NCBI RefSeq assembly: GCF_000759445.1
Contig: NZ_JRMB01000002.1
Coordinates: 372,001 to 436,000, forward strand
Direction: 5' to 3'
DNA: 64,000 nucleotides
Origin: Pseudomonas lutea
Lineage (GTDB): Bacteria; Pseudomonadota; Gammaproteobacteria; Pseudomonadales; Pseudomonadaceae
Positions 6,250 through 53,651 of the stretch are shown here, piece by piece (position 1 is the first letter of the stretch; every line of letters begins with the position of its first letter). Below the pieces are notes generated by a model, which was given only the letters and a program-made list of their open reading frames with translations, was not told the origin of the DNA and ran no database searches. The position numbers were made by a program, and so were the translations under genes.

Positions 6250-6302
6250 AAAAAAAAGACGCCCTGTTCTCACCCGTCGAAAAACGGAGAGCACACGGCG
6301 CC
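6250..6302 (-). terminator. Leader terminator (attenuator) upstream of nasA
   Basis: On the minus strand, GGCGCC...GGGCGTC forms an imperfect long stem (inner pairs CCGT/ACGG, CTC/GAG, TGT/ACA) followed by eight U residues at 6257-6250, 19 bases before the nasA ATG. Its 5' arm overlaps the second hexaloop hairpin (6294-6311), so the two folds exclude each other. This is the classic attenuator layout controlled by ANTAR antiterminators. Confidence 0.8.
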
Positions 6303-6336
6303 TTTGTCGTGAATATGGCAATCGGCGTTGATTGCC
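6294..6336 (-). promoter_or_regulatory. ANTAR-type twin hexaloop antiterminator RNA, nasA leader
   Basis: Minus strand. Hairpin P1 (6336-6317) is a perfect 7-bp stem, GGCAATC/GATTGCC, with loop AACGCC. Hairpin P2 (6311-6294) is CACGAC/GCCGTG (one mismatch) with loop AAAGGC. Both six-base loops have A at position 1 and G at position 4, the known ANTAR recognition pattern (NasR, NasT, EutV). P2 shares bases with the terminator. Binding by a NasT-like protein, encoded outside this window, would favour P2 and permit readthrough. Confidence 0.8.
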
Positions 6337-6351
6337 TTTAGGCAGGGCTTT

Positions 6352-6366
6352 GCAAACGGCAGGCCA
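6352..6366 (-). promoter_or_regulatory. Sigma-54 promoter for nasA
   Basis: On the minus strand TGGCCT-GCCGT-TTGC gives GG-N10-GC spacing, as required for -24/-12 promoters. Transcription would start near 6340, just before ANTAR hairpin P1 at 6336. Confidence 0.7.
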
Positions 6367-10164: not shown

Positions 10165-10241
10165 TGGCGCAGCGGACGGGACTCGAACCCGCGACCCCCG
10201 GCGTGACAGGCCGGTATTCTAACCGACTGAACTACCGCTGC
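10165..10241 (-). tRNA. tRNA-Asp (GTC)
   Basis: 77 nt. Acceptor arm GCAGCGG/CCGCTGC, encoded CCA end, anticodon loop CCTGTCACG giving GTC, and T arm GCGGGTTCGAGTCCCGT are all readable. It is 19 bases downstream of tRNA-Val on the same strand, so the two are one transcript ending at the terminator near 10100. Confidence 0.96.
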
Positions 10242-10260: not shown

Positions 10261-10336
10261 TGGTGGGTGATGACGGGATCGAACCGCCGACATTCTGCTT
10301 GTAAGGCAGACGCTCTCCCAGCTGAGCTAATCACCC
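10261..10336 (-). tRNA. tRNA-Val (TAC)
   Basis: 76 nt with acceptor GGGTGAT paired to ATCACCC, D arm TAGCTCAGCTGGGAGAGC, anticodon TAC in the loop CTTACAA, and encoded CCA. First gene of the two-tRNA unit. Confidence 0.96.
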
Positions 10337-23849: not shown

Positions 23850-24400
23850 GGCGCCTTCGCCAGCAAGCCGGCTCCTACAGTGGCATTGCGTGCATCCAGC
23901 GGATTCGCGTTCAATCGGGGGCATGCATGCCAGTGGTATTTGCGTGCATCCAGCGGGCTCGCATTCGATCGAGCGGGCATGCATGCCCGTGGAAATTGCG
24001 CGCATTCAGCGGGTTGCATGTCGATCGAGCGGGCTTGCACCACATTCGTAGGAGCCGGCTTGCTGGCGAAGGCGGCGTGTCAGGCGAGGACGATGTCGGA
24101 TGGGCCGACGTCTTCGCGGGCAAGCGCGCTCCTACAATGGAATGGCGTGCATCCAGTGAGGACGACTTCAGCGGGGGACGGTTTTCACCGAACCTGTAGG
24201 AGCCGGCTTGCTGGCGAAGGCGGCGTGTCAGGCGATGACGATGTCGGGTGGGCCGGCGTCTTCGCGGGCAAGCGCGCTACTACAATGGATGGCGTGCATC
24301 CAGCGGGTTCGTGTTCAATTGGGGGCATGCATGCCAGTGGAAATTGCGTGCATTCGGCGGGGTTGCATTTCGATCGCGCGGGCTTCCACCACATTCGTAG
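23850..24400. repeat. Composite array of about 55-bp repeats and BIME units
   Basis: No gene. Tandem units starting GCGTGCATCCAGCGG occur at 23888, 23942 and 23998 (degenerate), then 24145, 24292 and 24346. Several carry a GGGCATGCATGCC core. They alternate with REP-spacer-REP modules starting GTAGGAGCCGGCTTGCTGG (24048 and 24195) and closing GGGCAAGCGCGCTCCTACAA. A third module is split by the IS110 element at 24400/25741. A REP arm (CGCCAGCAAGCCGGCTCCTA) is at 23859. Confidence 0.85.
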
Positions 24401-24532
24401 ATATCGTCTTAATGCTCCTACTGCAAGCCCAGCAGCGCGCTAGCGCTGCTGCTTTTCAAGCAGGCACGAATATACGCCCGCGGCCCATCCCGCAGCGACA
24501 TCCTAGCCATTCAAGTCCTACTTGATCAGCCG

Positions 24533-25504
24533 TTAATGAGCCAAAGCAATTTCAGGTTCGAAAGGCCTGTTGCTTTTAAGCACGCCATAGACCAAGTGCA
24601 ACATCTTACGCATCACTGCACAGATAATTTGCCGGGGAGCCTTTCCGTTCGCCTTCAATCTCTTGGCGAACTCTCTCAGCACCACATTGTGTTGTATTCC
24701 TACGATCGCGGGCATGTAAAGGCCGCCCCTGAGTCGCGACGAGCCGGTTCGACTTATGCGGGTTGGACCCACGTAGCCTCCAGAGCGGTCCTGTCTGGGC
24801 GATAATCCAGCGAAGGCAGAAAGTTTTTTCGGTCCTTCGTAGTCCAGAGGGTCTCCCAGTTCCGCGAGGATCAGCGCGGCGGTCTTCTCGCCTAGACCAT
24901 CAATGGAGGTCATCAACTCGCTCTTGCCGCGTAGGTCAGGATCATCGTCGATGTGTTGCTTGATCGCTTTTTCCGTTTTGGTGATTTCTTCCAAGACATG
25001 AGCAATCACCGATTCGATCGACGTTACGACGTTCGGGCTGGCAACTTCCAAGCGGTTTTTCTCCATCTGGCGGATCTCGTTGAGATCTTCCAAGCGGCGG
25101 ACCAAAGCCCTCAGACGGCGCCGCGACTGTGGCTCAGGCACCCAAAGCCGTAACTTGCGATGCTTCTGCATGGCGAAATCGGAGATGAGTTTGGCGTCAG
25201 TCTTGTCAGTCTTGTTGCGTGACAACTCCGACTTGGCGTGAGCGGCGGTGGTGGCAGGGTTCGCGATATGAAGCCGATATCCCTTTTGAAAAAGGAAGTC
25301 AGCCAACGCTTCGTGATAATTACCCGTGGCCTCGATGACAATCAGCGCGTCCGCTGTGGCGTGCTTGCGAAGCCAGGACTCGAACTCGGCAAAGCCCTTG
25401 GCATCATTGCTCAACTTGCCCTTGGTGCGGTGTTTGCCATTGTCCAACGGCGTCGCAACATCAAAAGTATTCTTGGCCATGTCAACGCCAACGAATGAAG
25501 ACAT
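24533..25504 (-). CDS. IS110-family transposase (bridge-RNA-guided recombinase)
   Basis: 323 aa. The N-terminal RuvC-like DEDD domain starts FVGVDMAKNTFDVATP (Asp8) and includes IVIEATGNYHEALADFL, then ELSRNKTDKTDAKLISDFA. A coiled-coil region (about 130-190) links to the transposase_20 C-terminal domain (TSIDGLGEKTAALILAELGD, LSAFAGLSPRQDRSGG, RTGSSRLRGGLYMPAI), where the catalytic serine of this family lies. ATG has AAAGGAGAACAGC upstream. The enzyme recombines donor and target DNA held together by an RNA from the left end. Confidence 0.95.
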   Translation of the reverse strand: MSSFVGVDMAKNTFDVATPLDNGKHRTKGKLSNDAKGFAEFESWLRKHATADALIVIEATGNYHEALADFLFQKGYRLHIANPATTAAHAKSELSRNKTDKTDAKLISDFAMQKHRKLRLWVPEPQSRRRLRALVRRLEDLNEIRQMEKNRLEVASPNVVTSIESVIAHVLEEITKTEKAIKQHIDDDPDLRGKSELMTSIDGLGEKTAALILAELGDPLDYEGPKKLSAFAGLSPRQDRSGGYVGPTRISRTGSSRLRGGLYMPAIVGIQHNVVLREFAKRLKANGKAPRQIICAVMRKMLHLVYGVLKSNRPFEPEIALAH

Positions 25505-25519
25505 GCTGTTCTCCTTTTC

Positions 25520-25700
25520 AACTAAAGATCAATCATCGCGTCACTCGGCTTCGACCTTGTAAATGCGAGCTCACAAAGTGGCTCTAGATATCGTACGAGC
25601 TCAATGAGTGAGGTTGGAAAGGCGGAGAATGGATCTACTTCGCAGGCTACAACGCCACTAGGAGCCGGTCATCTTCACGCCTTTCCCTCGATGATCAGTC
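25520..25700 (-). ncRNA. Candidate IS110 bridge RNA (ends approximate)
   Basis: On the transposase strand the left-end leader holds two guide pairs. Target loop: CCGGCTCCT (25668-25660) equals the left target half plus CT core. TTGTAG (25652-25647) is the complement of CTACAA, the usual right half of this REP. Donor loop: ACGATATCT (25594-25586) equals the element's right end plus CT, and TACAAG (25561-25556) is the complement of CT plus left end TGTA. Order and polarity match the IS621 bridge RNA. Exact transcript ends cannot be read. Confidence 0.82.
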
Positions 25701-25740
25701 GAGAACTTTACCTTCTGAGAAGACAAAGTCGAGATACAAG

Positions 25741-25835
25741 GAGCCGGCTTGCTGGCGAAGGCGGCGTGTCAGGCGATGACGATGTCGGGTGGGCCGGCGT
25801 CTTCGCGGGCGAGCGCTCCTGCAATGGCAATGCGG
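25741..25835. repeat. Right half of the interrupted BIME
   Basis: GAGCCGGCTTGCTGGCGAAG through TCTTCGCGGGCGAGCGCTCC continues the REP module broken by the IS110 element. It is almost identical to 24198-24285. Confidence 0.88.
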
Positions 25836-53561: not shown

Positions 53562-53651
53562 TGGCGGAGAGATAGGGATTTGAACCCTAGGTACTGTCGC
53601 CAGTACAACGGATTTCGAATCCGTCCCGTTCGGCCACTCCGGCATCTCTCC
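53562..53651 (-). tRNA. tRNA-Ser (CGA)
   Basis: 90 nt with a long variable arm (TGTACTGGCGACAGTACC), acceptor GGAGAGA / TCTCTCC, anticodon CGA in the loop ATTCGAAAT and encoded CCA. The long arm confirms a class II tRNA. Confidence 0.95.

Follow-up and report, generated by a model that had tools for sequence, protein, structure and literature searches.

An IS621-type IS110 element of Pseudomonas lutea with a predicted bridge RNA matched to REP sequences

Background

An insertion sequence of Pseudomonas lutea is found in five places of its genome, and one copy lies in the stretch of 64,000 nucleotides analysed here (the window), in the midst of REP-like repeats. The question raised by this locus is what selects the insertion site. 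Parts of the answer are already in print: bridge RNAs and their guide rules (PMC11208160, PMC11208158), seekRNAs and natural reprogramming (PMC11187229), and the insertion of IS110 elements into Pseudomonas REPs (PMC1525189). The original prediction, made from the window alone, proposed an RNA-guided recombinase aimed at a REP and located four guide segments in the leader of the transposase gene. This general reading is strongly supported by the copies in the genome, the joint change of guides and targets, the fold, the catalytic residues and the NCBIfam assignment. We are close to certain that the locus carries an IS621-type IS110 element, whose predicted bridge RNA would guide the recombinase to Pseudomonas REPs. 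One of the four guides, however, had most likely been misplaced.

Boundaries and genomic setting

The element belongs to the IS110 group of insertion sequences, is laid out like IS621 and occupies positions 24401 to 25738 (1338 bp; minus strand, as for all its features given below). Its left end (LE) begins TGTATC and its right end (RE) finishes ACGATAT, limits that were set from five identical genome copies with differing outer flanks. A CT core lies at each side. At the left end, CT (25739-25740) forms the final two bases of the left target CCGGCTC-CT (25739-25747), and the junction reads GCCGGCTC-CT-TGTATCTCG. At the right end, where CT occupies 24399-24400, the junction reads GACGATAT-CT-ACGA, and the right target CTACGA runs from 24400 to 24395. 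A short subterminal repeat (ATA/TAT) flanks the core, with ATAT before it and TGTAT after it. The LE comprises the 234 nt upstream of the gene and holds the predicted RNA; the RE (24401-24532) is shorter, at 132 nt. RE length is 131 nt in copies of the P. graminis lineage and 15 nt in most other relatives, and the extra stretch holds a GC-rich inverted repeat (detected by eye).

Inspection by eye of window positions 23850-25830 reveals REP-like repeats clustered in both orientations around the element. This cluster sits between a gene with no NCBIfam match and a gene for an LpxO-like hydroxylase, whose score of 405.6 bits is below the cutoff of 500. Elsewhere in the window are a narK RNA motif (RF03032, 58.9 bits, 6295-6365) and three tRNA genes (10168-10241, 10264-10336 and 53565-53651).

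Copies and occupied sites

The genome (5.64 Mb, 5 contigs) holds five copies of the element, with no difference across the 1334 bases compared. Each is preceded by TTCGCCAGCAAGCCGGCTCCT, that is, GCCGGCTC followed by CT. On the right, four copies face CTACAG and the window copy CTACGA, with CTAC common to all five. The original prediction had named copies at sites unrelated to the guides as an outcome that would speak against it; the check came out in its favour, all five sharing both the left target and CTAC on the right. The exact REP sequence GCCGGCTCCTAC occurs 635 times in the genome (the same pattern read backwards is found 0 times), so potential targets far exceed the five insertions. 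CTACAG follows at 405 of these 635 sites and CTACAA at 38, as compared with four and none of the five occupied sites. A selection for CTACAA in the right target was thus considered and dropped, the occupied sites matching the genomic background.

Searches of a phage collection returned no DNA match to the element, and a plasmid collection returned one weak match, in Xanthomonas. In one other genome (G041), two related IS110 copies (L071 and L072) share one orientation, their ORFs separated by 366 bases, as if one had inserted beside the other.

Recombinase

The gene of the element (24533-25504) encodes a 323-residue transposase/recombinase with a DEDD domain (PF01548) and a serine Tnp domain (PF02371), for which NCBIfam gives the name 'IS110 family RNA-guided transposase' at a score above the cutoff. 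Two solved relatives were found by sequence, IS621 (8wt6, E 1.3e-65) and ISCro4 (9t56, E 2.3e-62). Identity to the IS621 protein is 133 of 310 aligned residues (43%). The five catalytic residues of IS621 named in PMC11208158 are all kept: D8, E58, D100, D103 and S241 align to D11, E60, D102, D105 and S241. The closest named relatives of the transposase come from P. graminis, at 95-97% protein identity. Residues 131-236 also give a weak NCBIfam match to a TIGR-Tas RNA-guided endonuclease model (E 5.2e-09; 36.4 bits for a cutoff of 100).

An element may have the right anatomy and yet be a relic that no longer moves. We regard this as unlikely for the present copy, given that the ORF, catalytic residues, guides and junction pattern are all intact and that the five copies are identical. 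Such identity suggests recent movement, although gene conversion is another possible cause.

Guide map: left target and donor side

The predicted bridge RNA would span 25541-25730, its exact ends being approximate, and comprises a 5' stem-loop region (25701-25730, helix 2 of the consensus fold described below), a target-binding loop module (TBL, 25616-25687, helices 4-6) and a donor-binding loop module (DBL, 25541-25611, helices 7-10); both modules are also supported by the covariance model. The guides lie in two internal loops, in the order left target guide (LTG), right target guide (RTG), left donor guide (LDG) and right donor guide (RDG), core included, as in the IS110 group, the RTG being placed by homology.

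All four strings listed in the original prediction occur on the minus strand in the order given: CCGGCTCCT at 25668-25660, TTGTAG at 25652-25647, ACGATATCT at 25594-25586 and TACAAG at 25561-25556. The first is identical to the left target half with its core, and constitutes the LTG (25660-25668). Identity ends at nine bases; at the tenth, the guide has A and the target G. ACGATATCT is indeed identical to the right end of the element plus the core; within it, the LDG ACGATATC (25587-25594) covers the right end plus the C of the core. TACAAG is the complement of CT plus TGTA, as proposed, and is correctly located, but the guide to which it belongs is longer: the RDG AUUUACAAG (25556-25564) fits the discontiguous pairing of IS621 with CTTGTAT, in which the far bases are paired by A and U, the next two bases (UU) are bypassed, and A and CAAG then pair with CTTGT. 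The DBL handshake position GU (25554-25555) adjoins the RDG, and a DBL stem-loop (25567-25584, helix 10) lies between the two donor guides.

Dinucleotide shuffling of the leader (20000 rounds) produced the left target 9-mer in 11 cases and the left donor 9-mer in 23, and never the two in one shuffle. The two hexamers are frequent in the same shuffles (TTGTAG in 1101, TACAAG in 549) and are therefore weak evidence when taken alone. The placement of the left target, left donor and right donor guides thus stands. The statement that both guide pairs match holds for the left target and the donor side, but was too strong for the right target, where CTAC alone pairs with the homologous guide.

Right target guide

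TTGTAG had been proposed as the right target guide and as the complement of CTACAA. The site of the window copy reads CTACGA, so TTGTAG can pair with it only through a G-U pair. The hexamer is most likely misassigned. It belongs to a stem-loop region between the two target guides (25643-25659), and in the isolated TBL fold five of its six bases stand in the apical loop (GGC-GUUGUA-GCC). We conclude from homology that the right target guide is most likely GTAG at 25635-25638, the complement of CTAC, followed by the TBL handshake dinucleotide AU (25633-25634), which could pair with the AT before the donor core, a function attributed here after PMC11208158. This agrees with the RTG of IS621, described in the same paper as four nucleotides, G77-G80 with tC11-tC8, followed by handshake bases 81-82.

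The assignment draws on several alignments. In three other distinct leaders of the P. graminis lineage (L006, L020 and L045), TTATAG replaces TTGTAG, and GAAGTAGAT is unchanged across these three and the window copy. A covariance model built without the window lineage aligns its GUAGAU to GAAGUAGAU of that lineage, the printed alignment being that of L020, which shares GAAGTAGAT. At the RTG place, GTAG is present in 65 of 70 copies and ATAG in the five copies of one genome (G079: L022, L047 and L049-L051), AT coming next in each. Right targets begin with CTAC in 62 of the 66 copies with a readable right end. The assignment of GTAG rests on homology, as more than half of the shuffled leaders (11397 of 20000) contain this 4-mer, which by itself is statistically uninformative.

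That TTGTAG is nonetheless the working guide, with a 6-nt match to CTACRR, is very improbable, although some observations speak for it. If one G-U pair is allowed it pairs with both CTACAG and CTACGA, and so fits all five occupied sites, and its competitor is preferred by homology alone. Moreover L020, whose hairpin reads TTATAG, sits at CTATGT, to which AUAG would pair; GUAG would too, with a G-U pair. Against these stand the position of the hexamer in the stem-loop, the placement of GUAGAU by the independent model, the four-nucleotide guide of IS621 (PMC11208158), the frequency of TTGTAG in shuffles and the match of the bases beyond CTAC to the genomic background. Also, lineage copies L045, L013 and L014 sit at CTAC despite TTATAG in the lineage leaders (L006 sits at CAAC). 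This last argument is weakened by the G079 copies, in which ATAG at the homologous place is mismatched to the CTAC of their sites; the right guide there tolerates or escapes the pairing rule.

A possible fifth base of the guide, GTAG being retained as the preferred assignment, was examined and set aside. Among the relatives, T occurs with target A in 27 of 28 copies and C with G in 14 of 30 (Fisher p 0.0002), a pattern that has no bearing on the window copy because the copies are related and the window lineage has A at this position.

Guides and targets change together in relatives

A survey of 398 genomes gave a match at E up to 1e-70 in 25, own genome included, one of which (G331) yielded cut copies only. 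The resulting guide table holds 70 copies in 27 groups: the own genome, 23 other genomes of the genus and three single copies from named records (L006, L009 and L010). In the other genomes of the genus, REPs were read at the insertion sites only. Set aside were two copies cut at the right that appear to repeat L021 and L046 (L007 and L008), a distant copy at 39% identity (L011), one whose leader was not resolved (L072), repeats of the own copies (L019, L044 and L086-L090), and fragments or cut copies (L012-L018, L043 and L084), with L013 and L014 used solely for right targets. In L021, L042, L046 and L071 the right end is unreadable, which leaves 66 copies for counts of right targets and right ends. 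For the LTG, the best match to the target was sought over the whole leader; the ends and other guides were found by search patterns (LE start, RE end, [GA]TAG-AT, ACG[GA]TAT and CAAG); as these patterns fix most letters, the constancy of the letters concerned is partly a matter of construction.

The 9-nt target (7 + CT) is reproduced exactly by the LTG in 32 of the 35 distinct leaders and with one difference in the other three, the LTG lying in every case at leader offset 69-73. Scored over the 16 LTG/target types, guide and target agree at 8.81 of 9 bases on average, versus 5.47 when targets are reassigned; none of 100000 reassignments was as high, the highest reaching 7.44, although such reassignment and shuffle counts overstate independence because relatives share descent. 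At the tenth base, agreement with the target is down to 12 of 70 copies.

The donor side varies little: RE and LDG both read ACGGTAT in the relatives and ACGATAT in the window lineage. LDG and RE agree at the open base (ACG[A/G]TAT) in all 66 copies with a readable RE; this co-change is one evolutionary event in one lineage.

Abundant REPs could yield such matches by other routes: with 635 exact occurrences of GCCGGCTCCTAC, a single match might be accidental, the leader having copied a REP by descent or flank capture, or the protein alone might read the REP, the RNA having no role, but we consider this extremely improbable, as the 9-nt match is seen in 16 LTG/target types, always at one position of a conserved scaffold, and stops at nine bases, the LDG/RE agreement is unrelated to REPs, and a role for the RNA is established by IS621 biochemistry (PMC11208160).

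Deviations from the common pattern are few. Of the three leaders with one LTG mismatch each, two differ in a core base: the LTG of L030 ends CCG and that of the five G110 copies (L031 and L059-L062) ends CCA, so that these guides mismatch the CT core of the target, and these copies are nonetheless found at full GCCGCTCCT and CTAC sites. L026 is the only leader with CAAGC for CAAGG at the donor-loop handshake, and its target has G for C just before the core, a compensatory change. At target position 7 and the handshake base, 68 of 70 copies have C/G and L026 has G/C; the exception is L023, with G/G, where the target base has changed with no handshake change.

Fold of the predicted RNA

A consensus fold of the 35 leaders has 50 pairs, with 97.2% of cells paired. 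Column shuffling (500 rounds) lowered this to 88.6% on average, and displacing one side by one to three columns lowered it to 37.2-43.2%. The structure was obtained from the very alignment used for these counts, a circumstance that biases them in its favour. Changes on both sides occur at 24 pairs (shuffled mean 15.4); stronger evidence for the predicted structure comes from those found in the 5' stem-loop, the TBL stem and the DBL stem-loop. Target guides are unpaired in this fold, and one invariant pair joins LDG and RDG in the donor loop.

Single-sequence folding of the whole leader did not stand out (z -1.44, with 18 of 200 shuffles equally or more stable), which is why the comparative fold was adopted. 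The donor loop folded alone likewise did not stand out (z -1.40, 15 of 200). For the target loop alone the values were more favourable (z -2.20, 3 of 200), but in its minimum-energy fold three bases of the LTG are joined to AGU at the right guide.

The covariance-model check that had been suggested for this leader was carried out with a model trained on 30 leaders, the window lineage excluded. It matched the window at 25542-25703 with 113.3 bits, the next best match in eight sources scoring 5.7 bits. Over the whole genome, at E up to 1, it returned the five known copies only, among 150 scored of 1699 candidates. Against Rfam, the leader gave no hit at or above the gathering score of any family.

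A candidate promoter at the circle junction

In IS621, excision reconstitutes a promoter (PMC11208160). When RE, CT and LE of the present element are joined, a candidate -35 TTGCAG (24421-24426) comes to lie 17 nt before a -10 TATCTT that spans the core and is formed only by this joining; the integrated copy is without it. In the RE, TTGCAG comes after the GC-rich inverted repeat. Across the junction, all 25 elements compared, one for each group whose RE could be read, show the pattern TTGNNN-17-TATCTT. In 24 of them no other scored pair does better; these scores come from the natural junctions only, and the -10 half is fixed by the conserved ends. In the window element the two hexamers match a sigma70-like consensus at 3 of 6 and 4 of 6 positions.

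Comparison with known systems

The likeness to IS621 of Escherichia coli extends to the recombinase domains, the five catalytic residues, a long LE with bridge RNA and the CT core, as well as to the 9-nt LTG, the 4-nt GUAG RTG, the 8-nt LDG, the discontiguous RDG and the AU and GU handshake positions (PMC11208160, PMC11208158), and to a REP target and a junction promoter, here a candidate (PMC11208160). The two differ in protein sequence, LTG and REP, and RDG position 161 is A here, giving a Watson-Crick pair, and G in IS621. ISCro4, the second solved relative, resembles the element by protein comparison. ISPa11, ISPpu9 and ISPpu10 also combine an IS110/IS1111-type transposase with insertion at one point of Pseudomonas REPs (PMC1525189, PMC11187229). 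ISPa11, whose targets are REPs of P. aeruginosa, is one of the elements with a demonstrated seekRNA (PMC11187229). As described in that paper, it differs in being treated as IS1111-type, with a non-coding region downstream and a reversed guide order. In guide layout the present element does not fit the IS1111 group: its RNA region lies upstream of the gene and the bottom-strand match precedes the top-strand match. In its anatomy the element does not clearly depart from the IS621-type family, the long RE being a small difference.

Proposed mechanism and significance

By analogy with IS621, excision to a circle would join RE, CT and LE and create a sigma70-like promoter with its -10 across the core, from which a bridge RNA of roughly 190 nt would be transcribed. 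The recombinase, with its DEDD RuvC-like and serine Tnp domains, would bind and carry this RNA, whose target guides CCGGCUCCU and GUAG would recognise the insertion site CCGGCTCCTAC, while in the donor loop ACGAUAUC and AUUUACAAG would each pair with one side of the circle junction. Strand exchange at the CT core would then insert the element in a fixed orientation. On the same grounds, this copy is probably active.

The present analysis adds one further member to the family, with a guide map that has been checked and corrected, and a compact group of relatives in which left guides and targets vary together. The case shows that a bridge RNA can be recognised in raw sequence, with the pitfall that a hexamer with a plausible match may be mistaken for a guide when the scaffold is not aligned. 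The element and its relatives form a set of recombinases with differing left guides and a near-constant donor side, which could be used to test how far the left guide alone sets the target. We advance, as a tentative proposal that may well prove wrong, that Pseudomonas IS110 elements of this type track the REP repertoire of their hosts mainly by changing the 7-nt left guide, while RTG, core and donor loop stay almost the same and the handshake base of the donor loop is adjusted in concert in some cases. If this is true, REPs and IS110 guides would together constitute a natural record of guide reprogramming.
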